Source: Megasphaera massiliensis (lineage in GTDB: Bacteria > Bacillota > Negativicutes > Veillonellales > Megasphaeraceae). From it: a DNA stretch of 60,293 bases. A program made the translations under genes and the position numbers. Below, piece by piece: positions 199 through 58,239 of the stretch (positions are counted from its first letter, which is position 1; every line of letters starts with the position of its first letter). The notes under the pieces were generated by a model. It made no database searches. It was not told where the DNA came from and worked only from the letters and a program-made list of their open reading frames with translations. The stretch spans positions 1,299,588-1,359,880 of the forward strand of contig NZ_HF954537.1 in the NCBI RefSeq assembly GCF_000455225.1, written 5' to 3'.

Positions 199-3100
199 TT
201 ACCAGTCAAGCAAATATTGGTATTGATTCTTGTCGCTTTTGTTCATACTTGACACTGTTCTTCCTTGGGTATCGAGCTTTTTCTTCTTCTGCTCTGCTTT
301 TACAGTGGAAGGCTTGATACCAGCTTCCTTTAGTTTGCGTGCATTTTCTCCTGTCGGATTCTCGATATACTCATCAACAAGCTGTTGTTTTTTGCTACTT
401 GCCTTTTTCTTTTCGGAAGACAATATTGATTGAATTAAATAAGAATCGCTTTCATCTGTAGATTGGAATCCCATTCCACGAAGTAATCGCTGATATGGTG
501 TCGTGTATTCTTGGTTTGTACGTCCGCGCTTACCAACAGATTCTCCTTGTGTAGCCATCAATAAGTTCCCTAGTCCAGGCGATATATTACGCACCTGTTT
601 TATCCAACCATCCCCACCATACGCGCTTTTAGTGACATTAAACAACGTACTAGCAGCAGGTCCAAACAAGCTATTCAGGTCATCTGGAACTGCATCACCG
701 ATACCAACTCGACTCGTAATATCAATGTTTGCGAAAGCACCAATACCGTACATACCTATCTTGGCAATAGGCTTGAGTGATGGATATTTTTCAGCAAGTT
801 CAATTAAGCTCTTCTTGGCTTCTTTTTCCGGATCATCACCGGTAATTCCCATAATTAGCAATCCCAGAATGTTTGCAAATGGAATCTGGAACAAACCAGC
901 CATGGCAAAATAGGTACCCCAGAAAATAGTCTTTTGCTTTTTAGTGGTTTCCTTGCCAAAAAATGGAAGAAAGTCTTTCATTGCTTCTAACTGTTTAATA
1001 GGATACTTCTTGAATTGCAATAATATCTGCGAAGCTATCGAACCACGCCGAAAAATTCCAGGTGCATCATGGACTCCATAATCGAAGTTTGATTTACGGT
1101 TTACGTCTTTCGCGTATCTAATAGCCTCTTCATGACTCATGCTACGTTTGCGGGCAGCTTCATAAGCCGCTAAAGTTACGCCACGGCGAACAATCCCCTC
1201 TGACTCTTTAAAAAGAATCATTCCCCGGTTAGCCCATTTCCCAGCAGAGAATTTCCCATACCCAGCTCCACTATCAAGTCCAATATCATTCAATACATTA
1301 GTTTGACGGAGTATCTTTAAGTCGTGCAAACTATATTTCCGGTGTGCTCCCTTTAACAACGCCTTCCATAAGGTTGATATGTTGCCAGTATACGCAGCCG
1401 CATTGGCAACCTGTAAAATGTTTAACATCGCAGAAGACACATTAAGGAATCCTAGTTTGGCAATGGAAATTTTATTGGTAATGGAATTTGCAAGGGATAC
1501 CGCGGCTCGATCTCCGAAGCGTGCGTTGACCCATTTACCGATAGCAGGTGTGGCGTTCAGCAAATCATTTAACTGCTTTTCAAGCGTAGATGGATTACCA
1601 TTAATATCATTAATATATTCTTTAATATAATTGGGCAATCCGTGATACTCATTATCAAACCTACCAAAAAGGCGTTCAAACAAAGAAATCGCTTGAGGTT
1701 TGAATTTACTTTCCATAGCTACATATCGCGATGTGCTGTTGAAATAATGTCGCAATACCCATTCTATTTCTTGTTCATAGCCATCCGCCCCCGTCCGTTG
1801 CATGAAGTTACCAAAGAAACGATGACGCCCTTTTTTCTTGACAATCCCGTCCAGCATTTCTTTGGCTTCATACAATGTCAAACTATGTTTGTCGGCTATT
1901 TTTTTTGCCATCCGGTAGAAATCCTTATCGCCAACCGTGGTAGCATATTGGCTTTCATCTAACCCGACTTCTCCAAAATCAAAGACTTTAGGGGCGATTG
2001 TTATTTTCCAATCTCCCTCGTTATTTTTTTTGAGCATCTCTTCGTTTTCAGCTTGCCATTTAATGGCATTTTTTGTAGCTTCACGAATAGTACGCCCACT
2101 AGAAACTACGGTAGATTTACCGTGACTATCTACACACCTTACCATATATTCATGGAAGAAATGGGGAATATAGCCTTTGCGGTTATGAATGTCCGGTACC
2201 CCTTCACGAGTAATTACTTTCCAATGCTTCTTCCCGTCCATGGGGCCTTCTTTCGTTGGAGCCTTTTCCAAGATTTGGATGTTATCGTCATTTTCTAATG
2301 ATTTCAATTCATACTCATTGACTAAATAATGAGACTGCCAATTTCCATGCTCCTTATAAGAAACGAGGGTACTGCCATCATCTTGCTTCGTTTCGCGAAG
2401 TATTTCAACGAACTTATTGTTCCTCAACTCATCCAACTTATGGCCAGCAAAATGTCCTGTTTTTGTCTTGGCTTGTTTTCTAGTTTCGTTGAGTTGGTTA
2501 TAAGCCTTGCGGAAGAGATTGCGAATTGCCAAATAACTGTCAATGACTTTTTCGTTATATCCTTGTTTATGAAGTTCCTCACGTGTATATTCCTTGCCTT
2601 CCATATCACCGGACCATAATAACTCTTGCAAGGTAGCTTTATCTTTCTTGCTTAAATCTAATGCGGAATCCAAATGTCGCTGGTAATCAGCCCGTAATTT
2701 AGTAAGAAGGTTCATGGCATCGTCCGCCATTTTAAAGAACGGTTTGAAATATTTCTTCTTTTCTGCAATTCTTGACGGAGATTGCAACAAGGTTCGATGA
2801 ACGCCGATGTCGTTTTCCGATTCTTGTTTCTGAGATATTTCAATATGGCTCATGAAGCGTTTTTTGGCCTCATTGCCTATTTTCTGTTCTTGTTGTCGAA
2901 TAGAATAATGGATTGGATCCTCTTTTTTTAACTTGCCTAAATCTGTTTCGTCTGCTATAATATTAGACAAATTAAAGGAATCGACCACCAGTGGACCATT
3001 AGGCGTCCGGGCTGAGGTATTTATACCAGTAAGCCAGTGGTCGGTTCTTTTTTTGTTTATGTAAATACAATCGCCACGCATTAACCTATCGATATACCAT

Positions 3101-6100
3101 GTATTGTTTGGGTGATTATTGCCTTTTCCGATTGTTTTTCCATAAACACTTTTTATAATGTTACCCACAATTTTATTTCCGTCTCTCGTCTTCTGTTCCA
3201 TAACAAACGGGATCATAATAGTTGCCCCATCATTATCTTTTAAATCAACGACTACAATTTTTGAAGATATATCTTCAACACCTTTGTTGTCAACAGCTTT
3301 TAAAATAAACATAGGGTCTGCAATCCTGCGAGGTATTTCTTTTAGTACTTCTGGAGAAATTTCGAGCCCGTGTTTCCAATGCAATACTTTATCTAATACG
3401 CGTGGGGAAATATACACTGGCAACATTTTTTCACCAATCAAATTTAAAACTAGAGGAGTATCCATCACCCGCACATACTCATCATACGACAACTTGTGAT
3501 TCATAAAGTCGTCTATTTTTTTTGCAAAGGACTGCATATCCTCTTTTAATTTTCTTTTTGCGTACATCGAGTAACTTCTGGGCTGACTACCATCGCTGTT
3601 TTCTGGTCGTTCCCACACTCTGCCCAACTCAATTTTCTGGAACACGTCGTGTACGTTCTCTGTACGAGTGAATATTATCTTCATCTTTGCGGCAAAATCC
3701 TTAATCTTCTGGAAGAGTTTGCCCCACGCCGTGCCGCGGCCATGTTTACGAGCTTCCACCCATTCGGCATATTTGTTGGCACGGTCTTCGGCGTTCGGGA
3801 TAGATTTAGTAATGGCCGCCTTTTCTTCATTCGTCAATACAGCTTGTTCGGCAACGTGATAAGCTTCATGAAACACTGTACCTTGCCGGCTACCCTGTGC
3901 CAAAGCTATATACGCATCTTTTCCGTGTGTCTTTGCAAAACCTTCTACCACTACATTGTCATTTCCGTCAATGGAGTGGTCTTTTTTTGCTCTGGACAAC
4001 TCATCCTCTGTCAAAACTATTTGATTCTTAACGTCTACAACGATGTGTGAGCCGTTTGGCATGGTAAATGTAATGCGGTCGCCGTATTCTTTGATATCTT
4101 TCGCCGTAGGAAATGCTTCTTTAATGCCAGCCTTTAATTCTTCTTTGGACTGAATAATGGCCTCGCCAGCCTTACGGGCGGAATATTGAGTATCTTCCGA
4201 CATACTTCCGATACGATCCGGCATGGTTCTGTTTTCGAGTGAGTCGAACAAGTCATTGATATTGTTGGCCATTAATTCAATCGGCCCTCGTGCTTCTGTA
4301 TTGGCAATTTCACGAGTACTTTCGTCGGTGTATTTATCGATAACGTAGATCTTTGTCCCGACGCTTGTTCCAGCTCTTTCAAATGTTACGCTTGGCAGTT
4401 TTATTTCGGCCATGATAACAGCATCTGGAACGCCTCTATCTTCCTTACGTTTTGCTTCCTGGTCGCCATACATCCATTTGTCAAAATGTTTCTGGCAAGA
4501 AGGACCATCCGGAACTATTGCAATGATTCGACCGCCGTCTTTCAAATGTCGGTAGGCTTTTGCAAGATGTTCAATGGCCGTCTTCCCGCCTTTGCCGAAC
4601 GGCGGATTCATAACGATCCCGTCGAATTTGTTGTGCAGGTCAAGGTTTTCAAAGTAGTTTTCAACAACTTTAGCATTGGAAACATTACGCATGAGTTTGG
4701 GACTCAAGTCATGCGACGGTTCGACAACGGTATTATAGGTGTCGTTCGGCATCCACCTAGCGATAGCGCCGTCACCGGCAGACGGTTCAAGCAAACTGTC
4801 ACCTGGTTTGCTGTCGAGCCATTCAACCATTTTAAGCCCTAGCGGTTCCGGAGTCGCAAAGAAATCTATCCCTTCACGGGCTTTTGTCCGCGCGTTTCGT
4901 TTCTGCTTGCCAAAGTATACGCCTTTAGCACGGTCAAAGTCTGTCGTTTCATGCTGATTCTTATAGTCGATAGCTTTGCCACCAGTGCCTTCGGTTGCAC
5001 TTCCAGGAAGGTATTTGTGCCATTCGTCGCCTTCTTGAGATTCTTCAAAGGCTTGTACATATGACGCTTTTAATTCACGAGCCATATCACCCAACGCAAG
5101 ATTTTCGACGGTTGCCGCGCGTTCTGCTAGTTTAGTAGCAAATGCAGCCTGTTCCATATATGTACCTGTGTTTAGATACCGGAACATAGCATTTGATTTA
5201 TTCCCTACACGGTAAATACGCCCTTCCTGTTGGATAGCTTCACTAGGTTTTGTAGGAAGTCCTAAATTAATCAATACACGTTGGTGCTTCCCGGTTGTAT
5301 CATGCAAGGATACGCCCGCTTGACCTGCATCAGACTGTATAAGAATTACTTTAGTTTTGCTTTTATCATCATTGAAAGATTTTTTATTGGCTTCACGTTG
5401 TTTCTTGCTAAGCGTACCATTATACAACACAAGACTATCGCCAAATGCGGTTGTAAGAGCATTGATTGGAGATTCAAGGCCGTTTAAGTCGAGCCTCATT
5501 AAATCTGGCCGTTCTTGGCTAAACTTATCGTATTGTTCAAGGACCTTCCCCGCCAACTCATGGTCTGCTGCACGTTCTAGCTGGCTTCTTAATTCGGAAC
5601 TCATGACAAAGGGATTGTTGGCACCGCCCTTATTGTAGTTGTGAAAAACAACTACTCTCTTTCCAGACTTCAAATATTCTTTGATGAGTGGCACCGCCTG
5701 TTTAGCTTTGATTGCTTCAAGAAGATACAACTTCTTAAACCCTTTAAACTGGTTGTTCAGGAATTCATATAAGTCTCTATATTCAGGCTTGTTTCTAAAC
5801 CATTCAAAGGCCTCATCAATCGTTTTTCCAACTCCGGCATCAATGCGAATAAAGCCACGATCGTAGTCATATTCAGATGATAACATACGTCCGTGTATAG
5901 CCCCTGATTCAACGAGTTTGTGATTGAACTGCCGTTCCAAAAGGTCGGTATCTACTTCGGAGCCAGGGCGTTCCAAGCGATTGTAACGCATTTGATAGCC
6001 AAAATTTTCCATGTAGAACGTCTCTTTGCCATTAGCATTGTTATAGCCCTGTTCTTCCATAGGTCCATAATCGCTATAGTTGAAGAGATATCCGTTCGCA

Positions 6101-9100
6101 TAGTCGAGATTAGCAACATGTTCAAAGGGCGTAGCTGACAGGAACACGACTTTAGATTGATTACGCTTAGCAAATTCAGCTTTATCTTCGGTTTCAAAGG
6201 CCTTTAGTTTTCCTCTAAGGCCTTGTACTTGTTCCTGCAATTCACGAGCTTCATCCTCAAGACTGCTTATCTTTTTATCGATTTCAGCATCCGGTAACTT
6301 CCCTTTACGGAGAACGTCACTTCGTTCTTTATCTAGTTTATCGATATTATCATGGATTGACTTTATTTTGGCAGTTAACTTCGTAATCGGCTCATCTAGT
6401 TCGGGGTGTTTATCGTGATGATACCGCTGGAATCCATCTTCATGCCCCGTAATTGCACGTACTAAGTTAAGCGCTTGTGTCGGTGTAGCCTTGGATCCAC
6501 CCATTAATTTTTGACTTTCGTCTGTGATTACTAAATCAAATTCACGATTTACAAGTACATGGTTATCTCCAATATTTGCATATGTAGCCGTAACAGGGCC
6601 TTTGCCTGCATCTTGTTTATTTTCGAGTCGCGTTAACTTAATACCAAAAGATCTTTCTGCATCCCCCTCCCATTGATTTAACACGCCGTCACTAGGAGCA
6701 ATGATAAGGATATTTGTTTTGCCTGCATCCATAAATCGTTTGACAATACCTAGCCCCGTATAAGTTTTGCCTGTTCCGGTGCCATTAGTAAACATCATAC
6801 CATTATGGTTTTTAAAACGATCTTCTGCAAGCATCACGTCTTCAGCCTGTTCTGGAAAAAGCATAGGCAATGCTTTTTTTATGCTATCAAGAGTGCTGTC
6901 ACGTTGCTCTTTTTGTACCTTTTCTATCGGGTTTTCATGCTTGGGTCTGTTTTCAACAGCTCTAACAGATTCGTCATTTCCTTTTGATTCATCGTCGGGC
7001 AATCCCTCAAAGCTATCTCTAACGCTTCTTGATAGCTCAACACTTCTGGAGCGTCGATCCGAGGATTTTTCAGTTTGTACTGTGCGATTGCTAGTCTCTC
7101 CGCTAACAGCGGTGCCACGATTTGAAACGCCGACATCGCCATTTTTTCGTTCTTCGGGTTCTTTTCCTGTCGATGTAAAATCTCGTCCGCCGCTGCGCAC
7201 GGGTCCTCCGCTTTGAACACTACCTTGCCCCAATACGTTTTCACTGGCCCCTTCGCCAGATCGTGAAGCCAACTTATCGGTGCTGCTATTAACATTGTTC
7301 GTCGCTCCTTTCAATTCTTCAACACTAGGATAGTTTATAACTGCATTATACACCGCGTCAAAGTATCTTGCATTACGTGCGCCTAATGTCCCGATAAATT
7401 CACGACGCAAAAGGACTTTGTCAGTCATTCCATGGTCATACATTGATCCGACATACTTAACCGCCGCCGTAAACCGCTTTTCGTCAAGGCTGGCATTTTT
7501 AGGCATCGATTGTAACGAAGTCCAAACCGAACGCAAAAACGGTTCGCCTTGTGGCATGGTTTCCTTCATAGCCCTTGCCCAACTAGCAAATGTATTCAGT
7601 CCGCGTTGTACATGAATGGCTCCTAGCTTAACCATGTGGTACATGAGCGTTGGATTAAACATAGGATTAGAGCTAATTTTAGAAAGTTCAGCAAGAATGG
7701 CTTTCTTTTCAGCTTCCAATGCCGCGTCGCTATCATCTAACAAATGGAACGTCTTGTTTATTGTTTCATTGTCCTTCGGAGTCGTGGCCTTTTTAGGTGT
7801 TTCCTGTGTTTCTCTAGGGTTTGGTTTTTTATTCTGTTTGACTGTTTCTTTTGTCGTTTTATTTGCAGGACTAGGACTATCAAAGAATCCCTTTTTAGAA
7901 GGTGTGTTTTTTGGCTTGTCGTGTTTTTTAATACCAAATGCGGCCATAACGGCTTCTTCGGCATCAGCCACACTTCCAAATCGAGCATCTTCTCTAGCAA
8001 GCTCGCTTGTATTATTTTTAGCGGCGTCTTTTACTTTCTCTTGTGCATCGTCCTTAGCACTTACAACCGCTTCCTTCTGAGCTTTCTTTTCTTTGCGTTT
8101 CTTGGACGCTTCTACACTCATTTGATTAGCGACAGCCATTGCGTCATTAACCATGCTGTTTACCTGAGTCCGTTCGTCATTGCTTAACTGCTTGTCAGTC
8201 TTGACGAGTTCCATGTCATCGAACGTGCCGTATGTAGCATGGCCAGCATCCATCAAGACACGTTTCAGTTTATCCTGTGTCTGCTTCGGAGTCAGCTCTT
8301 TATTCTGTAACTTGTTGGAAATATCGTCAATGACCTTTCTGAACGGATCAGTATGAGATGACTGTACTTTTGGCGTTTCCTGTTCAGACTTTTTACTTTG
8401 CTCTTTTTTTGCCTTTAATTCACGGATGTGTTCTCTTAAAGCCCCTGATGTAATTTCATCGTTAGCCTCTATAAGATCAATATGTATCTGATGATGTTCA
8501 TCGTCATTCCTGTCTACCTTATTTGCTGTTTCGGCATCATGGAATTCTTTTTTTAGTTCATCTAGTTGTTTTTCAGCTTCCTTATATGTGATTTTTCCTG
8601 ACTTTGCGTCGTCACGAGTTGTATTTACACGGTCATTTAAATCCTTGTAATAGGCTAATTTTTCCCGTTCTTCGCTTGTAATGGTATCGGCTGAATGATT
8701 TATTTCTTCTTGTACGTCACCTTCGGTACTTTTTTCGGAAACGGTACTTTGCGCGTCTTTACTTTCAGCTTGCTGACGTTCGGCGTTCCGGCTGTTATCT
8801 TCGTTGCCTTTTTCATTTGTATCGACTTCCTTTCTTGAAGTAACCATCTTGGCATTTTCTGGTTTAATGTGTTTGAATTTATCTTTTAGAGATTGTCCGT
8901 TGGCTTGCTCGTAAAGATTTGCAACCGCCTGTTCGGCTCCATCATAAAGCAGATTCATAGCAGGGTTATCCTTAAAGTTCATGTTCCACTCGTTAAGTGC
9001 TGATTCCCCGCCAGCGCTTTTTATTGCACCATCTATGCGTTTTGCAAACTCGTTCCGAACTTGATTATGGATAATAGCTCTCGCTTCTGCTTCTGTTTTA

Positions 9101-12100
9101 GCATTCTCAAAGGCCCTATGGAGCTGATTTACGTCAAATTTCATCGTCCACGGTCCATCCTTGCCAACGGCCGTACTCCATGTAGTAATTTCCCCGTTTT
9201 TTAGACCGCCTCTCCACTGATTGCCGTCTTCTTTATAAACTGCTTTGAAAGATTCTGGCTTTTCTTTTTTGGTCGGAATATCGTTTTGTTCATTCTGTCT
9301 TTGTGTGGAGACGTCACTATCCGTAGGACTCTGTACAAGTTCCTGCTTGTTGTTGGGAGAAGGCGTAGCAGTCGTTTTTATGGTCGTTTTGGCGGCTTCT
9401 CTTGCCTGTGCCTGGGACTGCTGCAACTGGTCAGCCAATGAAGCCTGCTGTTCTTCTGTTCCGTTTCTGAACGTATCCATATATTGTTTGAATTGCGGAT
9501 GATTGCGGTCAAACGTAGACAGAATACGGCCCAACTGGGCGTGTGGTGCTTCCGTCTGATTCTTTGGTGTAACTTTGTCGGCGGCTTTTGTTGTAGGCGT
9601 TGCATTATCGGCAATTGCCTGTTTAACGGCATCACCAATTTCTTTCTTATAATTGACCTTAATGTAGTTTCTGTTTTCTGGAGTGTCTACGAATTTCGGC
9701 TGTCCATTAGCATCGTTCGTAAACATGCCGTCCAACGTATTCACTTCATCAATGTCTTGAGAGCTATCCAGAACATTTTTAGCTACATCCGGAACAACGT
9801 CATCGGCGGTTACTTTATTTTCTCCGTTAAGTTTGGCCTGATCTTCCTGTGCTGCTTTCCGTGCTGCCTGCGCTTCCTGATCAATTTCAGCGTTTGTACG
9901 CTCCATAGAATCGTCATTCATAATGTCGTTCATAGCAGCATTGCTATCAGCCTGAATTTGATTCATTTCGCTATCAAACTGACTTTGCATTCTTTCAATA
10001 TCGTTGTCTGATGAGTTATTAGAAACGGTCGCATTGCCAGAAATAGGGCCTCCATTATTAGAAAAATGTACATGGCCGCCAGTTGCATTAGCGCTAGGGT
10101 GTTCGTATTCATCAAGCGGAGTCAGTCCCAATTCCTGCCCGCGTTGCATGAGCCATTCACGAGCATCTTTATTCTGTTCAAGAAAATCGGATGCAGTGTC
10201 AAAGGCATTGCCGGTATTATGGTACGAGGCGTTCGGGTCCCCGTCTCTTTTCATCGATGTAATAGAAAGTCGCTGTCCGAATTGTTTATAGAAGTCATGC
10301 ACAAGAATTTGTAATTTGTTGATTGTATCCTGGGTTTCACCTTCTACGTTTGGAGCATCAGCTTCACTGATATCATAGTAGGGATTTCCATTTTCATCGA
10401 GAACGTTACCGTCATAGCCGCCACTAGAATTTCCAACGTCACCCATATTGTCATAGTTATTTTTAACCATGTCCCGATACTGTTCAGCTTCTGGGCCAGA
10501 ACCATTGTAAGCACGAACGCCTGCCCATACGTCACCGTTTTCACCGGCAATTTTAGCTTTAAGGATAGCCATACCGACCATGGCGTTTTGATACGGGTCT
10601 GTTTTCCAATCCGGATATTGTTTGTCGAGTCCTAAATCTTCAACGGTTTCGTCCTGTGCCTGCATAATGCCATATACTCCATCATGAGGTTCGGGCATCC
10701 CGATTGCATTAACATCATCGCCTCCACTTTCGCGGGCTGCAATGGCCAGGCCCAACCGCGGGTCTACGTCAGAATCATTAGCCGCTTGAATGACTGCATT
10801 AACCATCGAATTACCGGTATTAGCATTCATGCTGCTGCGTGTAACAGGCTGTTTTTGTGCAGCCGTTTCTTTTTGAGCTTTAATGACACTGTTATAAGCG
10901 TTGTTGACTTCTTCTGGAGTGCCATTTCGGATAACACCAACAAGCCAGTCATAGTTTTCCTGGCCAATCTGGTCTACCGTATTATTGTTCAAGAAATTAT
11001 AAATTTCTTCTTTCTGAGTGAATGCATCAAAATCAGCCATAGACTGATCTATAGAGTCCTGCGCATTATCATTTTGACTTTCTGCATTATCAGATGCAAG
11101 TCTAGCAATAGCTGAAACGTTAGGGTCTTTACTGTTAGAAATATATTCGGCAGCTGCTTGCTTCGTATTAAATACAGGGTTGCCACTTTCATCGGTCGTA
11201 ATATTAGGTCTAGAAGACATAGACGCAGCAATATGTCCCGGTGTACTCATGCCAATACCACCAATAGCCCCCGCTAAAAAACTGTCTCGCTGATCATCCG
11301 TCCATGCATATGGATTGAACGGGTTCCCCCAAGGCTTGTCTTCTGCATTGTTTTGAATAACCTGCTGTATATTTTCCTGCATCCCTTCGTTGGCTGCACC
11401 CAACGCTACGCCAGGAATCGATCTAGGGATAGCCATTCCAAGACGTTTAGCAGCGCTTTCGGTTACACTTGGTCGGAAAACTTTCGCGCCAGCACCTTTC
11501 ATCAAGGCATATTCAACCGGGCTTGTAACAAGTCCTAATGCCATATTTTCAGCCATTACAGGAGCGCCTTTAAGCATTGCTTGACCATAACTAAGGCCCT
11601 CATCCTGCAAATCTTTTACGGTATTCCCATATTCACCAGCCGATTCAAGAAGGTTCTTACCAATGGCACCTTTAACCATATCCGGTGCAATTTCTTTAAA
11701 CGCCGCCGATCCAGCTACTTTCCCCAGTCCGACGCGACTAAGAGCCTTTCCCATAACACCAGCACCGCGGCCAACAATACTTGCGGGGACTGCTTCGGCC
11801 GCTGGCACCATTGCAACGGTCGAGCCAAACCCCTGACCTAACCAAAACGCAGCTTGGTTAGGATTTGTCAAAATATTATCGCCATATTGTGAGTCCCATT
11901 CGTCACGTACTGGTTTCCAATAATTTTCATAGGCGTCGACTGCGTTTTGTACGCTGTCAATCCCAACGAGCGAAAGTGGAGAGCCCATGGCGTTCGCCGC
12001 GCCTTCTGCAAAGCCCATCCCAAAGGCGGTACCGTGTGGATATTCTTGAGCATTCTTTTTAAATCGTTGTTGTGTGGTTTCTCCCCACACATCCCACGGT

Positions 12101-12333
12101 TTAACATACCCGCCATTATACGTCGGGTATTGTGCAAGTGCCTCTGCACGACCTGGAGCTATAAAGTTAGCAGCAGCATTGGCCCACGAAGTAAGGTTAG
12201 GAAGAAACGAGTCTCCCGACTGTTGGCCAGACGAATCCGCGGCTGCGGACTGTTCTTTGTAGTAATCCAGATTTTTATCGCTTTCTAAGTCACCGCCATT
12301 CACCATGCGGACGAACTTATCATAATATGGCAT
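199..12333 (-). CDS. giant polyvalent ejected virion protein (transglycosylase, M15-like peptidase, helicase, DNA methyltransferase, zincin, MuF_C-like nuclease)
   Basis: At 4,044 residues this takes a fifth of the phage. Domains I can see, in order: a lytic transglycosylase at about 505-630 (catalytic-type ARESGG, then GVYGIMQ); a D,D-peptidase M15-like domain at about 665-760 (HNTGNAFD and GHVHFS); a long Lys/Glu/Asn-rich linker at about 800-1700; an SF2 helicase at about 1830-2400 (Walker A NGTGTGKT near 1850, DESQ near 1935, QQEGRIYRVG near 2366); an N6-adenine-type methyltransferase at about 2490-2620 (EPSAGDG, NPPFG near 2575); a zincin-like HEAYH near 2822; a region like the MuF C-terminal nuclease fold at about 2970-3120; and a helical, partly hydrophobic C-terminus resembling large polyvalent-protein domains (LPD38-like). 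Polyvalent proteins of the P1 DarB kind are packaged and ejected with the DNA. The position, last in the late operon after other ejection-type proteins, fits. The likely roles are crossing the wall and protecting the entering DNA; this is inference. It starts with ATG 11 nt after a GGAG. Confidence 0.85.
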   Translation of the reverse strand: MPYYDKFVRMVNGGDLESDKNLDYYKEQSAAADSSGQQSGDSFLPNLTSWANAAANFIAPGRAEALAQYPTYNGGYVKPWDVWGETTQQRFKKNAQEYPHGTAFGMGFAEGAANAMGSPLSLVGIDSVQNAVDAYENYWKPVRDEWDSQYGDNILTNPNQAAFWLGQGFGSTVAMVPAAEAVPASIVGRGAGVMGKALSRVGLGKVAGSAAFKEIAPDMVKGAIGKNLLESAGEYGNTVKDLQDEGLSYGQAMLKGAPVMAENMALGLVTSPVEYALMKGAGAKVFRPSVTESAAKRLGMAIPRSIPGVALGAANEGMQENIQQVIQNNAEDKPWGNPFNPYAWTDDQRDSFLAGAIGGIGMSTPGHIAASMSSRPNITTDESGNPVFNTKQAAAEYISNSKDPNVSAIARLASDNAESQNDNAQDSIDQSMADFDAFTQKEEIYNFLNNNTVDQIGQENYDWLVGVIRNGTPEEVNNAYNSVIKAQKETAAQKQPVTRSSMNANTGNSMVNAVIQAANDSDVDPRLGLAIAARESGGDDVNAIGMPEPHDGVYGIMQAQDETVEDLGLDKQYPDWKTDPYQNAMVGMAILKAKIAGENGDVWAGVRAYNGSGPEAEQYRDMVKNNYDNMGDVGNSSGGYDGNVLDENGNPYYDISEADAPNVEGETQDTINKLQILVHDFYKQFGQRLSITSMKRDGDPNASYHNTGNAFDTASDFLEQNKDAREWLMQRGQELGLTPLDEYEHPSANATGGHVHFSNNGGPISGNATVSNNSSDNDIERMQSQFDSEMNQIQADSNAAMNDIMNDDSMERTNAEIDQEAQAARKAAQEDQAKLNGENKVTADDVVPDVAKNVLDSSQDIDEVNTLDGMFTNDANGQPKFVDTPENRNYIKVNYKKEIGDAVKQAIADNATPTTKAADKVTPKNQTEAPHAQLGRILSTFDRNHPQFKQYMDTFRNGTEEQQASLADQLQQSQAQAREAAKTTIKTTATPSPNNKQELVQSPTDSDVSTQRQNEQNDIPTKKEKPESFKAVYKEDGNQWRGGLKNGEITTWSTAVGKDGPWTMKFDVNQLHRAFENAKTEAEARAIIHNQVRNEFAKRIDGAIKSAGGESALNEWNMNFKDNPAMNLLYDGAEQAVANLYEQANGQSLKDKFKHIKPENAKMVTSRKEVDTNEKGNEDNSRNAERQQAESKDAQSTVSEKSTEGDVQEEINHSADTITSEEREKLAYYKDLNDRVNTTRDDAKSGKITYKEAEKQLDELKKEFHDAETANKVDRNDDEHHQIHIDLIEANDEITSGALREHIRELKAKKEQSKKSEQETPKVQSSHTDPFRKVIDDISNKLQNKELTPKQTQDKLKRVLMDAGHATYGTFDDMELVKTDKQLSNDERTQVNSMVNDAMAVANQMSVEASKKRKEKKAQKEAVVSAKDDAQEKVKDAAKNNTSELAREDARFGSVADAEEAVMAAFGIKKHDKPKNTPSKKGFFDSPSPANKTTKETVKQNKKPNPRETQETPKKATTPKDNETINKTFHLLDDSDAALEAEKKAILAELSKISSNPMFNPTLMYHMVKLGAIHVQRGLNTFASWARAMKETMPQGEPFLRSVWTSLQSMPKNASLDEKRFTAAVKYVGSMYDHGMTDKVLLRREFIGTLGARNARYFDAVYNAVINYPSVEELKGATNNVNSSTDKLASRSGEGASENVLGQGSVQSGGPVRSGGRDFTSTGKEPEERKNGDVGVSNRGTAVSGETSNRTVQTEKSSDRRSRSVELSRSVRDSFEGLPDDESKGNDESVRAVENRPKHENPIEKVQKEQRDSTLDSIKKALPMLFPEQAEDVMLAEDRFKNHNGMMFTNGTGTGKTYTGLGIVKRFMDAGKTNILIIAPSDGVLNQWEGDAERSFGIKLTRLENKQDAGKGPVTATYANIGDNHVLVNREFDLVITDESQKLMGGSKATPTQALNLVRAITGHEDGFQRYHHDKHPELDEPITKLTAKIKSIHDNIDKLDKERSDVLRKGKLPDAEIDKKISSLEDEARELQEQVQGLRGKLKAFETEDKAEFAKRNQSKVVFLSATPFEHVANLDYANGYLFNYSDYGPMEEQGYNNANGKETFYMENFGYQMRYNRLERPGSEVDTDLLERQFNHKLVESGAIHGRMLSSEYDYDRGFIRIDAGVGKTIDEAFEWFRNKPEYRDLYEFLNNQFKGFKKLYLLEAIKAKQAVPLIKEYLKSGKRVVVFHNYNKGGANNPFVMSSELRSQLERAADHELAGKVLEQYDKFSQERPDLMRLDLNGLESPINALTTAFGDSLVLYNGTLSKKQREANKKSFNDDKSKTKVILIQSDAGQAGVSLHDTTGKHQRVLINLGLPTKPSEAIQQEGRIYRVGNKSNAMFRYLNTGTYMEQAAFATKLAERAATVENLALGDMARELKASYVQAFEESQEGDEWHKYLPGSATEGTGGKAIDYKNQHETTDFDRAKGVYFGKQKRNARTKAREGIDFFATPEPLGLKMVEWLDSKPGDSLLEPSAGDGAIARWMPNDTYNTVVEPSHDLSPKLMRNVSNAKVVENYFENLDLHNKFDGIVMNPPFGKGGKTAIEHLAKAYRHLKDGGRIIAIVPDGPSCQKHFDKWMYGDQEAKRKEDRGVPDAVIMAEIKLPSVTFERAGTSVGTKIYVIDKYTDESTREIANTEARGPIELMANNINDLFDSLENRTMPDRIGSMSEDTQYSARKAGEAIIQSKEELKAGIKEAFPTAKDIKEYGDRITFTMPNGSHIVVDVKNQIVLTEDELSRAKKDHSIDGNDNVVVEGFAKTHGKDAYIALAQGSRQGTVFHEAYHVAEQAVLTNEEKAAITKSIPNAEDRANKYAEWVEARKHGRGTAWGKLFQKIKDFAAKMKIIFTRTENVHDVFQKIELGRVWERPENSDGSQPRSYSMYAKRKLKEDMQSFAKKIDDFMNHKLSYDEYVRVMDTPLVLNLIGEKMLPVYISPRVLDKVLHWKHGLEISPEVLKEIPRRIADPMFILKAVDNKGVEDISSKIVVVDLKDNDGATIMIPFVMEQKTRDGNKIVGNIIKSVYGKTIGKGNNHPNNTWYIDRLMRGDCIYINKKRTDHWLTGINTSARTPNGPLVVDSFNLSNIIADETDLGKLKKEDPIHYSIRQQEQKIGNEAKKRFMSHIEISQKQESENDIGVHRTLLQSPSRIAEKKKYFKPFFKMADDAMNLLTKLRADYQRHLDSALDLSKKDKATLQELLWSGDMEGKEYTREELHKQGYNEKVIDSYLAIRNLFRKAYNQLNETRKQAKTKTGHFAGHKLDELRNNKFVEILRETKQDDGSTLVSYKEHGNWQSHYLVNEYELKSLENDDNIQILEKAPTKEGPMDGKKHWKVITREGVPDIHNRKGYIPHFFHEYMVRCVDSHGKSTVVSSGRTIREATKNAIKWQAENEEMLKKNNEGDWKITIAPKVFDFGEVGLDESQYATTVGDKDFYRMAKKIADKHSLTLYEAKEMLDGIVKKKGRHRFFGNFMQRTGADGYEQEIEWVLRHYFNSTSRYVAMESKFKPQAISLFERLFGRFDNEYHGLPNYIKEYINDINGNPSTLEKQLNDLLNATPAIGKWVNARFGDRAAVSLANSITNKISIAKLGFLNVSSAMLNILQVANAAAYTGNISTLWKALLKGAHRKYSLHDLKILRQTNVLNDIGLDSGAGYGKFSAGKWANRGMILFKESEGIVRRGVTLAAYEAARKRSMSHEEAIRYAKDVNRKSNFDYGVHDAPGIFRRGSIASQILLQFKKYPIKQLEAMKDFLPFFGKETTKKQKTIFWGTYFAMAGLFQIPFANILGLLIMGITGDDPEKEAKKSLIELAEKYPSLKPIAKIGMYGIGAFANIDITSRVGIGDAVPDDLNSLFGPAASTLFNVTKSAYGGDGWIKQVRNISPGLGNLLMATQGESVGKRGRTNQEYTTPYQRLLRGMGFQSTDESDSYLIQSILSSEKKKASSKKQQLVDEYIENPTGENARKLKEAGIKPSTVKAEQKKKKLDTQGRTVSSMNKSDKNQYQYLLDW

Positions 12334-14638: not shown

Positions 14639-15754
14639 TTATTCCCCCTCTACCCAATTATCGGTACTACCGCCTTTAGCGATAAATCCATCGGCATAAT
14701 AATTGTTGTCACCGGTAAGCTGCAAATCATATACTTTTCGCTCTCCGGAATAAACCATATTAACGACGCGGCCCTTACCTTTAAGCGTCGTACCAAGAGT
14801 CATATTGCCGATTTCTTTCCAGCCGTCGTCAGTAAGCAACGGTTGCGTCAATGTTGCGCTAACATAATTCGTGTTCACGCCGTCCTTACATACGAGGTTC
14901 CAAACATCGTTGTATTTAGGCGTAAGAGTTTGTTTGACCGTCTCAACCGTTTCGGTCCCGTCTTCATGCGGACAAAGTACGGCATCGCCAACTTTAACGT
15001 CTGTAATTTCTTTTTCGGTTCCATCTTCCATACGGATTTTGGTTTCGGGCGCAAAACAGAAAATAGTTGCATTGCTTGCAAGGCCTGTAAGAATCCCGCC
15101 AAACAAACCGCCGCCGCTTGTGCTTTGTGTCTGCTTTGTCGTTCCCTTTCCTGCTAGGCTAGATAATGCCCCGGTCGTTGCACCATTAAGTCCCAAGGAT
15201 GCATTCCACAAGTTAATTGCCGGCTGTTGTGCTCCTTCCTGCGCAGCTGCGGCCGTTGCAATCGGCTGCCCGGATGCATCGATATTTTGACCGTAAATGT
15301 TAGCTAACTGGGATAAGGTATTGTTCCAATTTTGAGCCATAGCATCACTAGCACTATCGCTAATCCCTTTCATCCCTGTATTCATCACGGAGCTATTAAC
15401 GACGCCTCTAGCCCCCATATCCTGCAAAAGATTGCCCATGGAGTTATTAACGCCGCTCTTAATAGAGTTTTCCATCGCCGTTTGATAGGTGGCTGGAATC
15501 TGACCTTGTGCCAAACCTCTAAGGCCATTTTGTCCCCACTGGATTTGACTAAGAGCGTTTTTCATGAGCTGATTATAATCAACCTGTGTATCGCCCAGGG
15601 AGTTATACAACATATTGCCGGCAACGTCATTGAGCTTTTTTGCGTTCGGCATGACGTACTTAGAGTATTCTAAGGCCTGTTGCTGCATAGCTTTTTCTTC
15701 CGCTGTCGGTGTATAAGTTTGCGTATTGGAGCTTGATCCGCCTTTTTTGCCCAT
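14639..15754 (-). CDS. virion protein with a C-terminal Hint (hedgehog/intein) domain
   Basis: 371 residues. Residues 1-230 are Ala/Gly/Asn/Gln-rich and helical, as in short-tailed phage ejection proteins, and end in a glycine-rich stretch. A Hint domain starts at about 232 with CFAPETKIRMEDG, the usual Cys1 start, followed by KVGDAVLC and a block resembling motif B (TLTQPLLTDDGW). Two usual catalytic features look altered: the block-B histidine (normally T-x-x-H) reads T-L-T-Q, and the end reads YYADGFIAKGG rather than ending in His-Asn. Protein splicing is therefore unlikely. Cys1-driven cleavage or a purely structural role remains possible. About 12 residues follow the domain. It lies between a GNAT-like gene and the 760-residue protein. 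Confidence 0.75.
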   Translation of the reverse strand: MGKKGGSSSNTQTYTPTAEEKAMQQQALEYSKYVMPNAKKLNDVAGNMLYNSLGDTQVDYNQLMKNALSQIQWGQNGLRGLAQGQIPATYQTAMENSIKSGVNNSMGNLLQDMGARGVVNSSVMNTGMKGISDSASDAMAQNWNNTLSQLANIYGQNIDASGQPIATAAAAQEGAQQPAINLWNASLGLNGATTGALSSLAGKGTTKQTQSTSGGGLFGGILTGLASNATIFCFAPETKIRMEDGTEKEITDVKVGDAVLCPHEDGTETVETVKQTLTPKYNDVWNLVCKDGVNTNYVSATLTQPLLTDDGWKEIGNMTLGTTLKGKGRVVNMVYSGERKVYDLQLTGDNNYYADGFIAKGGSTDNWVEGE

Positions 15755-19380: not shown

Positions 19381-20391
19381 ATGAAATTACCTAATGGATA
19401 CGGAACTTGCTATAAACTATCTGGGAATCGGAGGAGGCCGTTTGTCGTGAAAAAGACGATAGACGGAAGACAAAAGATACTGGGCTACTTCGATACGTTT
19501 GCTCATGGCATCGCCTACCTTTCTTCTGTCAATGAATCGCCATTAATCGACGATAGTATTACCTTCGCTGAACTGTTTCTACGTTGGAAACAGTTGAAAT
19601 ATAGTCGGTTATCCGTATCCAGTTGCAAGAGCTATGACAATGCCTTTAGACACTGCCACAAGCTGCATAAACTGCCTTTTCGTAGTATCCGATATGGTCA
19701 TTTGCAAGACGTTATCGACGACATACAGGCAGGATACTGCACACAAAAGAAGTGTCGCGGACTATTAGAACAACTATACCGTCACGCAATCAAGTACGAT
19801 ATCGTTAGCACCGACTACGCAAGATATATTGAGCTAAAACCACACATTAAGAAATACAAGAAAAAGCCATTCACGGTCAGACAAAGAAATAAGCTTTGGC
19901 GTGCCGTAGATGATAATCCGGATGTCATTGATGTACTCATCCTTATTTATACAGGCCTTCGAATTGGAGAATATTTGCGACTCACGCCACACGATGTGAA
20001 GTGGCGCAGCCACTACTTTATCGTCCAACAATCTAAAACAGCATCAGGCACCGGACGCGCTGTACCCATTCATAAAAACATTTATAAATGGTTTGTATCT
20101 CGTAAAGAACAAGACTACATCTGTCAGCACGAAAACGGGACTCCATATACCTATGATTCATTTAGACGACGGTTTGACTCCGTTATGAAGTCTTTCGGGA
20201 TGCACCACACACCACACGAGTGTCGACATACTCTAGCCTCAATGCTTGATAGCGTCGGAGCTAACGACACGGCCATAAAGAAAATACTGGGTCATGCCTG
20301 CCGCGGTGTAACAAAACACGACTACACACATAAAACAATTCGTGAGTTGCGGAAGGCTATTGACGCGGTTTACCGTTGGGGAGTTGGCTAG
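19381..20391 (+). CDS. tyrosine recombinase, probable tail-fibre invertase
   Basis: 336 residues. All catalytic residues are visible: Arg in TGLRIGE, Lys in QSKTASG, His and Arg in HECRHT, His in ILGHA, and Tyr in KHDYTH. The N-terminal 50 residues are basic and resemble an arm-binding domain; a core-binding domain follows. It is the only plus-strand gene within the late region. It lies beside two fibre genes with silent cassettes and is far from the phage ends, while a separate integrase sits at the right end. I infer DNA inversion (an Rci-like role) rather than integration. The last codons (RWGVG, stop) are encoded inside crossover repeat B. A start-proximal AAAGGA supports the ATG at 19381. 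Its promoter must lie within the divergent small membrane gene. Confidence 0.85.
   Translation: MKLPNGYGTCYKLSGNRRRPFVVKKTIDGRQKILGYFDTFAHGIAYLSSVNESPLIDDSITFAELFLRWKQLKYSRLSVSSCKSYDNAFRHCHKLHKLPFRSIRYGHLQDVIDDIQAGYCTQKKCRGLLEQLYRHAIKYDIVSTDYARYIELKPHIKKYKKKPFTVRQRNKLWRAVDDNPDVIDVLILIYTGLRIGEYLRLTPHDVKWRSHYFIVQQSKTASGTGRAVPIHKNIYKWFVSRKEQDYICQHENGTPYTYDSFRRRFDSVMKSFGMHHTPHECRHTLASMLDSVGANDTAIKKILGHACRGVTKHDYTHKTIRELRKAIDAVYRWGVG
20373..20385 (+). repeat. crossover repeat B of fibre 2 shufflon
   Basis: CCGTTGGGGAGTT, identical to repeats C and A. It occupies the last codons of the recombinase gene in one frame and begins silent cassette 1 in another (reading VGEL). Confidence 0.75.
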
Positions 20392-20587: not shown

Positions 20588-20600
20588 CCGTTGGGGAGTT
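20588..20600 (+). repeat. crossover repeat C of fibre 2 shufflon
   Basis: A second plus-strand copy of CCGTTGGGGAGTT, directly after the stop codon of cassette 1. It reads VGEL in the cassette frame. Confidence 0.75.
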
Positions 20601-20835: not shown

Positions 20836-21343
20836 TCCGATACCACACATATACTGATTTACACGGAGAAACATTATAGTGATAGCCGTTACCACCAGTT
20901 GCGGTTACGAGCTGTTGTTGATTAGTTTTTCCGTTAGCGTATTCAACTGCATTGCCGTTAGTTTGTTGAGGTATTTGATAGGTGCCAGAGTTATATCTAA
21001 AAGATACGGCCCACATCCAAAATGGAATTTCGTGCTGATGAGACGGCAACTCCCCAACGGTTAATTGATGCTCAAATTCACCGTACTTTTGACCGGCCTT
21101 AAATTCTTTCGTCCACGTTGTACTTCCATGCTGTTCTGTAGCCTTCCCTTGCGCCACCAATGTATAGCCTGGTGTCAGTGCTTCCCAGGTCCCGCCAAAC
21201 AATTCGCTTGGGTCCGTAGGGTCATCGGAGAAATAATAGCTACCAACAGGGTGTGCCTGCAATAGAATATTTTCTATTATGCTGGCCATATTCTTGATTA
21301 TGTCGTCGACGTTTTGCGTCAAATCAATTGTATTTTTACCCAA
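20828..21343 (-). CDS. tail fibre 2 (active version)
   Basis: 171 residues. The start is a TTG at 21343, with AGAGGTGA at suitable spacing. Residues 1-95 are the constant part, including HPVGSYYFSDDPTDPSELFGGTWE, a signature of tail-collar and short-fibre tips. Residues from about 96 (VGELPSHQHEI...) are the exchangeable part, ending TGGNGYHYNVSPCKSVYVWYRIS. The junction carries repeat A, the inverted partner of repeats B and C. The protein probably contacts the host surface. The variable parts differ mainly in their middle, as expected for a receptor-binding tip. Confidence 0.8.
   Translation of the reverse strand: MGKNTIDLTQNVDDIIKNMASIIENILLQAHPVGSYYFSDDPTDPSELFGGTWEALTPGYTLVAQGKATEQHGSTTWTKEFKAGQKYGEFEHQLTVGELPSHQHEIPFWMWAVSFRYNSGTYQIPQQTNGNAVEYANGKTNQQQLVTATGGNGYHYNVSPCKSVYVWYRIS
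21048..21060 (-). repeat. crossover repeat A of fibre 2 shufflon
   Basis: A minus-strand copy of CCGTTGGGGAGTT inside the active fibre 2 gene at the constant/variable junction (TVGELPSH). It is inverted relative to repeats B and C. Confidence 0.75.
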
Positions 21344-21487: not shown

Positions 21488-22084
21488 TCACGTCATATAG
21501 GCTGATAGTTCAGCTTCATTTTTGCAATTATTAATTGCGTCACGGATTTTCATGAACCACTCGTAAGCCGCTATCTGCTGCTTTCTAGCCTCGTTCCCGG
21601 CTGCTATGAGCTGTTCTTTTGTTACGTCGATGAAGGCAAGGCTATTAGACGAATCGCGCACCTTATACTTACCTTTATCAGTAATAAGTGTTAAGGCCGT
21701 CTGCCATTCACGCTGGCTCTTTTCGTCCGTGCTAAATCGCAGATCGTCCACTACAACATCAGCTTCTTTTTTAGCGATGTATTTATTGTACTGAATTGAC
21801 AAGGCTTTTTCTTTTAATTCGCTTAGTGTAGGCGGTACATATTCACGCCTTGCTTTTGCTTCGATGTAGGCCGTAACATTGTCGATATAGCCTTCATACA
21901 TAGCATCAGGATAGTCTTTAAATTCATCATCTACACAACATTGTTTCTGCGTGTCATCATAGATGATTTTATTCGGGACATTGGTAATTCCGCTATCCAC
22001 TTTGAAATTATCAGCGGTGTCGCTGTACTGTTCACCTTCTTTGATGATAAGTACAGCGTTATCAATGATTTGAAAAACTCTCAT
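21488..22084 (-). CDS. DUF4376-like tail fibre assembly protein
   Basis: 198 residues from the ATG at 22084, chosen for AAAGGAG 6 nt upstream. The N-terminal half is beta-rich and acidic. The C-terminal half (about 95-195: YVPPTLSELKEKALSIQ..., DLRFSTDEKSQREWQTAL, ...YEWFMKIRDAI) matches the DUF4376 pattern seen beside phage fibres. It lies between the two fibre genes and probably helps fold or trimerise one of them. Crossover repeat E lies 21 bp upstream of the start codon, outside the ribosome site, so inversion of the fibre 1 segment would change its upstream DNA without damaging the gene. Confidence 0.65.
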   Translation of the reverse strand: MRVFQIIDNAVLIIKEGEQYSDTADNFKVDSGITNVPNKIIYDDTQKQCCVDDEFKDYPDAMYEGYIDNVTAYIEAKARREYVPPTLSELKEKALSIQYNKYIAKKEADVVVDDLRFSTDEKSQREWQTALTLITDKGKYKVRDSSNSLAFIDVTKEQLIAAGNEARKQQIAAYEWFMKIRDAINNCKNEAELSAYMT

Positions 22085-22104: not shown

Positions 22105-22115
22105 CTACCAATGAG
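22105..22115 (+). repeat. crossover repeat E of fibre 1 shufflon
   Basis: CTACCAATGAG on the plus strand, starting the first silent cassette of fibre 1 (TNEL). Its first 10 bases are identical in repeats F and D. Confidence 0.7.
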
Positions 22116-22358
22116 TTGGCCTCACACGGACATGGAGCAAGCGCCTCGACAGATAGTCATACTCATACGGCTTGGACCGTTATCGGCGGGTCCGACTTTC
22201 TGGGTGGACATAGTGGCAATAATGGTAAATGGGGTAATACTACTACAAGCCAAAATAGTCATTCGCATTCAATCAATATTTCTGCAACTGGCGGCAATGG
22301 TTATCACGAGAATAGACCGCCGTATGTTGTCGTTAACCGCTGGAAACGCACGGCATAA
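22105..22358 (+). other. silent fibre C-terminal cassette 1 (fibre 1)
   Basis: An open frame lacking a start and ribosome site: TNELASHGHGAS, then a Ser/Thr/His/Gly-rich body with repeated SHSHS-type motifs, ending NGYHENRPPYVVVNRWKRTA and a stop at 22356-22358. The ending is nearly identical to active fibre 1. Inversion between E and D would join it in frame. Confidence 0.82.
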
Positions 22359-22369
22359 CTACCAATGAA
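22359..22369 (+). repeat. crossover repeat F of fibre 1 shufflon
   Basis: CTACCAATGAA on the plus strand, placed right after the stop codon of the previous cassette. Confidence 0.7.
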
Positions 22370-22639
22370 TTGGCAATTCACGGACATGGAGCCAGTATAT
22401 CTAGCACCAGTTTAGTCGGTACGTTAGGGGCATATACATGGGACCACTTAGCTAGTGGTATTGTGTCGGCCCAAGATATGAATGGTAGTGTTAACCCAAG
22501 CGGACATTACGGGTACTACAAATATACTGTTAATGCTTCACATGGGCATTCAATTAGTCTTTCGAATACGGGCGGAAACGATCGTCATGAAAATCGTCAG
22601 CCGTATCTTGTTATTAATAGGTGGAAACGAAATGGTTAA
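22359..22639 (+). other. silent fibre C-terminal cassette 2 (fibre 1)
   Basis: An open frame: TNELAIHGHGASISS..., a distinct middle (TWDHLASGIVSAQDMNG), then HGHSISLSNTGGNDRHEN and the ending RQPYLVINRWKRNG, stop at 22637-22639. It converges on the active fibre 1 gene; the palindrome TTAA at 22636-22639 supplies a stop codon to both strands. Confidence 0.82.
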
Positions 22640-23490
22640 GCTGTTCTTCTCCATCTATTTACAACGGCGTATGGAGGCCTATTTTCATGATTTCCGTTAC
22701 CGCCTGTGTTGCTAATAGTAATGGTGTGCGAGTGGTCGCCATTCCAACTAGTGGTTTGATTATTCCAATAGTTAGCACCGCCAGCACCAGCATTTTCGTC
22801 CTTACCGTCAACAATAACGCGCAAGGTGTGATTATGACCGCCATTCGTACTTGAACTTGCACCATGTGAATGCGAAGGCATTTCATTGGTAGTGAGTTTG
22901 TGTTTAGCTTCACCGCCTGTAGCGCCAAGAGAATAACTATACGAACCGCTACTATCAGAATATGAACCACTAGATACAAGAACGCGACCACCGTCCATGA
23001 GCGACCATGTTGTTCCCGGCCATAACTTATTCGGGTCGCTACTCGTAGTAGACTCCCATATAGAGCCTACAGGGTACACAATGTCAATTACCTCTTTAAC
23101 GCTTCTTTGCTGTACCTTTTTCCACGTTCCATCGGCTGCTAAGTAGTAATCTGTTTGCGTTCCTGAGGCAGGTGCCGGTACTAGCCCTTGTTTTCCGGCT
23201 GCGTTTGAAGTTGCTCCTTTAAAATTGGTAATAGATTTAACACCACTCCCAACGGCATTATCCACATATCCTGTTGACGGCAATAATTCCCACTTAACCG
23301 GAGATAAGTTTGTCAGCAAGTACATATTATTATTATCGTCAGTCCGAACACATGTCATACCTACTTGCAGATTTTCGGTAGGGAACACTGTACCACTGAA
23401 ATTACTGGCTACAGACTGTATGTTTTTATCCGCCTTGCCTAGGTACACGTTACACGCATCAGTATCGTATAACTGGCTGTATTCCTGCAT
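22636..23490 (-). CDS. tail fibre 1 (active version)
   Basis: 284 residues. The N-terminus probably joins the virion; the middle has IVYPVGSIWESTTSSDPNKL, the tail-collar type GS-W-P motif, at about 139-158. The constant part ends near 202 (KHKLTTNEMPSH). The variable part (about 82 residues) is His/Ser/Gly-rich and ends GNHENRPPYAVVNRWRRTA, a common ending of phage receptor-binding fibres. Repeat D marks the junction. It follows the 713-residue tail protein by 4 bp in the late operon. Confidence 0.82.
   Translation of the reverse strand: MQEYSQLYDTDACNVYLGKADKNIQSVASNFSGTVFPTENLQVGMTCVRTDDNNNMYLLTNLSPVKWELLPSTGYVDNAVGSGVKSITNFKGATSNAAGKQGLVPAPASGTQTDYYLAADGTWKKVQQRSVKEVIDIVYPVGSIWESTTSSDPNKLWPGTTWSLMDGGRVLVSSGSYSDSSGSYSYSLGATGGEAKHKLTTNEMPSHSHGASSSTNGGHNHTLRVIVDGKDENAGAGGANYWNNQTTSWNGDHSHTITISNTGGNGNHENRPPYAVVNRWRRTA
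22882..22892 (-). repeat. crossover repeat D of fibre 1 shufflon
   Basis: CTACCAATGAA on the minus strand inside the active fibre 1 gene (TTNEMPSH). It is inverted relative to E and F. Confidence 0.7.
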
Positions 23491-57042: not shown

Positions 57043-58119
57043 ATGAATATAGACTACAACTTCACTTACCGCCAAAAAGACAAGGGCTGGCAAGTCATAT
57101 TGTCTTATAAAGACGGTAGCAAATGGAGACAAAAAAGCAAACAGGGACTAAAGACAAAGCAGCAGGCAAAAGCCATGGGCGAGGAACTTTTGTCCGACCT
57201 TAAAAGAACATTTGTTCCTTCTTCAAACGCTATGAAGGGAACAACACTTAGACAATTTTTGCCCGTATTTCTAAAGGCAAAAGCTGGCGATGTTTCTTCG
57301 TCAACGCTTATTGAGTATCGTGATGTGTGTAAGTTTTTTCCGGAAATTGCAGATATTCCAATGGACGAAATTACCACTCAAAACGTCGCACGCATTTTAA
57401 CAAGAAGAAAAACAGAAGGTTATTCAGTCGCAACACAACGACTTAGACTTACTATATTAAAGGCTGTATTATCTAGTGCAGCCAATACTTATGGCATTAT
57501 CCGTGAAAATCCGGTAAAACGGATTAAACTTGATAAGCGGCAACGAAAAAAACTCCGCACCCTTTCGAGCGAGGAGTTTAGGACATTACTACAAAGCCCA
57601 ACTGCAATTGGGTATGAATACTACAAAACGATCGTAATGACAGCTTATTATACCGGTATGCGCTATGGCGAGATTTTAGGCTTATCATGGGATAATATAG
57701 ACTTTGACAAAAAAGAAATAACTATTGAAAAACAGTTAAAAAGGTATCCTCACGATCATAAAATTACCTATAAACTAGGTCCACTGAAAACACCTGGATC
57801 GTATCGGACTATTCCAATACCGGATGTATTAATTGAAAGCTTAATTAAACGGAAAAAGCAAAGCACCGATAACTTAGTTTTCTCCGTCGTAAGCTCCAAT
57901 ACAATGGCTATAAACCGATGGATCAATAAATCTATTCCAGGACGATCTATACATGCATTCAGACACACTTACGCAACAAATCTACTTGCGCACGGTGTTG
58001 ATGTACAAACGGTAGCGGCACTATGTGGCGATACCGTAAAAACAATCATCAACAACTATATCGACTATACAAATGAAATGCGAAAGAAGGCTGCGCACGA
58101 TATTAATAGGATTTTTTGA
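57043..58119 (+). CDS. int: phage integrase (tyrosine recombinase)
   Basis: 358 residues. An N-terminal AP2-like arm-binding domain, a core-binding domain (about 65-165), and a catalytic domain with Arg in YTGMRYGE, Lys in LKTPGSYRT, His/Arg in HAFRHT and Tyr in NNYIDYT. The position usually LGH reads CGD, a change also seen in some other integrases. A strong AGGAGGT precedes the ATG. The gene lies at the right end of the phage, so it is the true integrase. Confidence 0.92.
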   Translation: MNIDYNFTYRQKDKGWQVILSYKDGSKWRQKSKQGLKTKQQAKAMGEELLSDLKRTFVPSSNAMKGTTLRQFLPVFLKAKAGDVSSSTLIEYRDVCKFFPEIADIPMDEITTQNVARILTRRKTEGYSVATQRLRLTILKAVLSSAANTYGIIRENPVKRIKLDKRQRKKLRTLSSEEFRTLLQSPTAIGYEYYKTIVMTAYYTGMRYGEILGLSWDNIDFDKKEITIEKQLKRYPHDHKITYKLGPLKTPGSYRTIPIPDVLIESLIKRKKQSTDNLVFSVVSSNTMAINRWINKSIPGRSIHAFRHTYATNLLAHGVDVQTVAALCGDTVKTIINNYIDYTNEMRKKAAHDINRIF

Positions 58120-58134: not shown

Positions 58135-58239
58135 CAAGGTTTTATCACTGAAAAAAGCTTATTATTAAGCCCTTTTCAAGTGTCTGTGATACAATGTTAC
58201 TATTATATATCAAGTGCCGGGAAAAAGAAACACTTTTTT
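58120..58239. other. right phage boundary region
   Basis: 120 bp between the integrase and the first host gene. It contains a small hairpin (GCTTA/TAAGC at 58157-58170, then CCTTTTC) that may end integrase transcription. The attachment core should be here, but I find no clear matching repeat at the left end of the window. Confidence 0.5.

Follow-up and report, generated by a model that had tools for sequence, protein, structure and literature searches.

A probable tail-fibre shufflon with its own crossover core, the second in one prophage, and a tyrosine recombinase proposed to serve both

We analysed a DNA window of 60,293 bp, a prophage within a 2.7-Mb bacterial genome, and interpret its array A2, with a probability of roughly 0.75, as a second tail-fibre shufflon beside a first in the same prophage; one recombinase would act on both arrays, and differing cores would prevent exchange between them. 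In the proposed mechanism, the recombinase encoded at 19381-20391 would recombine two A2 sites (CTACCAATGA) of opposite orientation. The segment from 22883-22892 to either 22105 or 22359 would thereby flip, and the 85-residue end of fibre 1 would be swapped in frame for one of two silent ends. The same enzyme would act at array A1 (CCGTTGGGGAG) on fibre 2, giving nine fibre pairs, and a core common to all sites of one array but not to those of the other would preclude the exchange of tips between A1 and A2. The fibre tips presumably bind receptors, and tip switching may affect host range.

Layout of the two arrays

The module runs from the recombinase (+) through A1 with fibre 2 (-) and a DUF4376-like gene (-) to A2 with fibre 1 (-) (Table 1). 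Three copies of CTACCAATGA are present in the window, at 22105(+), 22359(+), and 22883-22892(-), with no others, and the 11-mer CTACCAATGAA is found at 22882-22892(-) and 22359(+), in agreement with the A2 repeats reported by a first-pass annotation of this DNA. When the 1.4-kb stretch that holds them was dinucleotide-shuffled 2000 times, 5 of the shuffles contained a 10-mer repeated three or more times in mixed orientation, a count that leaves aside the common reading phase of all CTACCAATGA copies. The invertible stretch of A2 (22105-22892) is distinct from the span of the fibre 1 gene (22636-23490, minus strand).

Joining of the constant part of fibre 1 (199 amino acids) to each A2 site yielded open frames of 283 (c1), 292 (c2), and 284 (expressed) amino acids with the related ends RPPYVVVNRWKRTA, RQPYLVINRWKRNG, and RPPYAVVNRWRRTA, respectively. 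The A2 tips are 41-60% identical in pairwise comparisons, with that of c2 being 41-47% identical to the other two. Fibre 1 matched Pfam Gp10_C with 74.5 bits (cut-off 27) as well as PHROG tail families, and the match of cassette c1 to Gp10_C was weak (E 0.0027). A2 thus has two of the features by which a shufflon is recognized: a constant part with alternative C-termini, each headed by CTACCAATGA, which is found in both orientations, and a nearby recombinase gene, which is 1.7 kb from A2 and overlaps A1. A third feature, the occurrence of alternative arrangements, was seen in relatives and not in this prophage (see below). The sister array A1 for fibre 2 lies 1 kb from A2 and has the different core CCGTTGGGGAG, which supports the earlier suggestion of a second tail-fibre shufflon with its own crossover repeat and a layout like that of the first. 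The count of nine possible fibre pairs proposed there also stands, with three tips per array and two single inversions in each.

Table 1 Coordinates of the arrays, fibre genes, and recombinase genes in the window
Feature	Position	Strand	Remarks
Tyrosine recombinase, proposed invertase for A1 and A2	19381..20391	+	Pfam Phage_integrase, 67.8 bits
A1 crossover site 1 (CCGTTGGGGAG)	20373..20383	+	Overlaps last recombinase codons; opens silent A1 tip c1 (to about 20587)
A1 crossover site 2 (CCGTTGGGGAG)	20588..20598	+	Opens silent A1 tip c2, which ends near 20836
Fibre 2 gene, 171 aa	20828..21343	-	Gp10_C, Pfam 56.1 bits (cut-off 27)
A1 crossover site 3 (CCGTTGGGGAG)	21050..21060	-	Within fibre 2 gene
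DUF4376-like gene (MRVFQI...)	21488..22084	-	Pfam DUF4376 below cut-off; between A1 and A2
A2 crossover site 1 (CTACCAATGA)	22105..22114	+	Opens silent tip c1
A2 silent tip cassette c1	22105..22358	+	Gp10_C-like C-terminus; end RPPYVVVNRWKRTA
A2 crossover site 2 (CTACCAATGA)	22359..22368	+	
A2 silent tip cassette c2	22359..22639	+	End RQPYLVINRWKRNG
Fibre 1 gene, 284 aa	22636..23490	-	Residues 1-199 constant; residues 200-284 form the expressed variable tip; Gp10_C
A2 crossover site 3	22883..22892	-	Within expressed fibre 1 gene; T-T-N-E-M-P-S-H motif
Prophage integrase	57043..58119	+	Beside immunity genes

Given that the sites coincide with a motif conserved in this fibre family (T-x-x-E-M/L-P/A-S-H), the sharing of CTACCAATGA might reflect that protein motif only and not a recombination site. 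We regard this explanation as barely credible. Synonymous positions are fixed within the core and not elsewhere, with the core being invariant and the codons of identical residues outside it agreeing in 35% of cases; the core has a sharp left edge in the silent copies even though the DNA to their left belongs to no reading frame of a fibre; and inversions in relatives are bounded exactly by such cores, the pair L114/L115 described below being in direct contradiction to it.

With the distal A2 site lying just 5' of its ribosome-binding site, at a distance of a few bases, the DUF4376-like gene retains its translation start whatever the state of the array. A gene starting with M(R/K/H)VFQI is similarly placed in five phages (the window, L001, L067, L053, and L089), and its product is possibly a helper of fibre assembly. 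At the other end of the module, the stop codon of the recombinase gene falls in a silent A1 tip (20360-20391), and inversion between 20373 and 21050 would extend the recombinase from 336 to 351 amino acids, making possible a self-feedback through a change at its C-terminus. In L001, unlike in the window, the recombinase stop lies just ahead of the site.

Recurrence in other phages and evidence for inversion

The module of recombinase, array, gene, and array, with two different cores each time, was also found in L001, L053, L067, and L089 (L053 is the same in sequence as L094 and was counted once). In L001 (IMG/VR 2558309039), the recombinase is 83% identical to that of the window, the gene order is the same, and the cores are CTGTCGGGGAA and CTATCGA[AG]GAA. 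The recombinases of L067, L053, and L089 are 52-57% identical to that of the window, and their core pairs are CCGTCGATGAG and CTATCAGTGAA for L067, CCACCGATGA and TCACTGAGAG for L053, and CCACCGATGA and CTGTTGATGA for L089. A rearranged form was found in L065, with the recombinase between two arrays, fibres of different families, and the cores CCATTGAGGA and ACAGGGTGGA. In a recombinase tree constructed without L089, the window, L001, L067, and L053 grouped together (support 86) and L065 was placed elsewhere, which, on this tree, suggests two or more origins of the two-array layout or its loss in between. The related phage L032 has the neighbouring genes without the recombinase, with one fibre and no silent tips.

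Searches of viral and genome collections for near relatives of the fibre or recombinase of the window returned only L001, and a DNA search of plasmids gave no match. When the A2 core and its flanks were used for an exact pattern scan, 19 contigs matched, and in none of them was the core repeated. No Gp10_C tip cassettes were present in prophages of the same genus whose recombinase is 39-42% identical to that of the window, and among them an array-like repeat was present only in G013/L023. Enzymes of Butyrivibrio and Fusobacterium phages (31-35% identical) had no array in the annotation and were set aside as probable integrases. Single arrays with the core ACAGTGGGGA, related recombinases, and fibres with a Q-W-G motif were seen in L090, L091, L092, L095, L098, L100, L129, L052, L063, and L023, and tyrosine-recombinase fibre shufflons look common in the phages of this group. 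Several copies of the palindrome-like CCACCCTGATAGCAGGGTGG lie beside a related recombinase in L056 (4125-5489), which looks like another type of site.

Inversion at such sites occurs in relatives. Comparison of L114 with L115 revealed a 457-bp segment, 94% identical and in opposite orientation, that is bounded exactly by CCAAGGGGGA sites, and the silent tip of L114 is the expressed tip of L115. A tip that is silent in L053, at 7895(+), is expressed in L089, at 7126(-), with 72% amino-acid identity and with the constant regions of the two phages in the same orientation. In the L051 assembly, bases 495-589 recur exactly, in inverted form, as bases 1-95, with the copy ending at the site, and bases 412-506 repeat 4594-4688 at the fibre junction, beside a run of ten N; both orientations thus appear to be present within this assembly. 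These direct cases all concern A1-type or single arrays and none an A2 array. For the prophage of the window, neither A2 nor A1 was found in a flipped copy, its assembly included, and two other twin-array assemblies contained no second arrangement. From the relatives, we infer that inversion also takes place in the prophage of the window.

The presence of only one arrangement in the assembly would also be expected if A2 were a relic, with tips that are remains of duplication, a repeat kept by chance or gene conversion, and no present flipping. In L067, an in-frame stop in the recombinase gene fits such an explanation; this TAG (L067:2467-2486) represents decay, error, or recoding, and the L067 arrays may be locked. 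For the window, we consider a relic very unlikely: every silent tip is open, in phase, and retains the C-terminal motif; the core is invariant where neighbouring codons have changed; and the catalytic residues of the recombinase are complete (R194, K219, H279, R282, H305, and Y315, an R-K-H-R-H-Y set that is invariant in 19 relatives). In addition, ordinary homologous exchange needs more matching sequence than a 10-bp repeat offers.

Proposed recombinase assignment and possible insulation of the arrays

The prophage integrase is encoded next to immunity genes, and a 15-bp repeat (CAATGTTACTATTAT) is present at 58192 and 559 bp to the left of the window, a pair consistent with attachment sites. 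This makes the enzyme encoded at 19381-20391 an additional tyrosine recombinase, internal to the prophage and part of its late region. A weak match to Arm-DNA-bind_4 in 3 of 19 relatives suggests that an arm-binding domain may be present. Elsewhere in the prophage, a 371-aa protein of the virion region (14639-15754) has a Hint/intein-like C-terminal part with sub-threshold Pfam matches and a similar counterpart in L032, and a single open frame of 4044 aa (199-12333) looks like a multi-domain "polyvalent" phage protein.

Synteny and gene content indicate that the recombinase at 19381-20391 is probably common to A1 and A2. The first-pass annotation had weighed one recombinase against a second acting elsewhere, and had rested the former option on a TTGG...AG motif found in both arrays on opposite strands. 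One enzyme remains the better option; the motif was abandoned as its basis, given that it is not conserved, with both L001 cores lacking TTGG. In the window, the A1 core agrees with the A2 core at only 3 of 10 bases, so that recognition by one enzyme is not obvious from their sequence, and this difference at 7 of 10 positions would fit an A2 that is invertible but served by another enzyme, which could be the integrase (57043-58119) or, in trans, a tyrosine recombinase of the host. Outside the prophage, the host genome has seven further matches to tyrosine recombinases, and a phage inversion locus without a nearby recombinase is on record (PMC6109161). We nevertheless judge this alternative unlikely. 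In five phages, A2 always accompanies A1 and this recombinase; the records of L001, L089, and L094, which are possibly fragments, each contain one tyrosine recombinase and no second; no match to a serine recombinase (PF00239) was found anywhere in the host genome or, in a record that is possibly a fragment, in L001; the two L001 cores differ at only 2 of 10 positions; and recombinases of this family adjoin many different cores.

The cores themselves follow a common pattern. Read in the fibre coding direction, all 18 distinct cores of the family have a pyrimidine at position 2 and a purine at position 3. The pattern [AC]YRNNRRKGA fits 14 of these 18 cores compared with 0.11% of window positions, although it was drawn post hoc from the same cores and is descriptive and not proof. 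It spans fibres read in different codon phases (CAG-TGG-GG and ACY-NNN-NNN-GAR), which argues for a constraint imposed by the enzyme. All 10 cores of the T-x-x-E fibres in the five phages have a threonine codon with C or T as its last base, compared with 40% of the threonine codons in seven genes of the window.

All copies of the 10-base core within an array are the same, a single base in A2 of L001 excepted, and the cores of the two arrays in one phage differ at 2 to 7 of 10 positions. Tyrosine recombinases depend on matching overlap sequences for strand exchange, so that differing cores would keep the tip repertoires apart. On this requirement, insulation of A1 tips from A2 tips by array-specific cores is the slightly favoured interpretation. 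In a tree of 26 tips, all A2 tips formed one clade (SH-aLRT 99) and the A1 tips of different phages intermingled; the separate clades could result from selection on fibre fit and not from core mismatch. We would put at about even odds the fuller proposal of an orthogonal system, in which one enzyme would recognize a loose frame about [AC]YR.....GA with a free core middle and would thereby operate two insulated shufflons with independent tips. If one enzyme does act without mixing, the array-specific cores would constitute a natural set of orthogonal sites and would bear on how tyrosine recombinases choose partners.

Comparison with known systems

Phage tail-fibre shufflons of tyrosine recombinases with one array are already known. 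The literature searched, which took in few subscription papers and no preprints, yielded no description of the two-array layout, a recurrent module that would allow a combinatorial choice of two fibre tips. The Rci shufflon of plasmid R64 resembles the arrays described here in that a tyrosine recombinase shuffles C-terminal segments; it differs in its target, an adhesin at the tip of a conjugative pilus, in its single array, and in its site. IncI2 shufflons have also been described (PMC5430464). The Min, Gin, and Cin systems of p15B, Mu, and P1, of which Min is multi-segment (PMC6109161), likewise vary phage tail fibres through DNA inversion; these systems rely on a serine recombinase, the type not matched in the present host genome, and on one fibre array.

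HvsR of Mycoplasma pulmonis is a single tyrosine recombinase reported to govern inversion at vsa and hsd with distinct sites (PMC2268961), an arrangement like that proposed for the window. It differs in that it operates on a bacterial chromosome, on surface lipoproteins and restriction enzymes, and at loci that are not adjacent copies of one layout.

The Rin shufflon, described in Bifidobacterium prophages (PMC6109161) and reported also in those of Eggerthella lenta (PMC8778435), shares with the window a phage-encoded tyrosine recombinase apart from the integrase, a constant N-terminus of a receptor-binding protein with several silent C-terminal segments, and a short asymmetric repeat at each segment; inversion changes the tip in Rin, as is proposed for the window. 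In the window, the variable C-terminus belongs to a tail protein according to the Gp10_C and PHROG matches, with a putative role in receptor binding. Rin comprises one array with one 11-bp asymmetric repeat (TTCCCTAACCC), and its enzyme was described as lacking an arm-binding domain (PMC6109161), whereas the window has two arrays, two fibres, and two cores, with repeats that differ from the rix repeat by which, together with homology to the Rin enzyme, that system is defined. A2 works like Rin and is not classified as Rin, from which it is set apart by its repeat and by the number of arrays.
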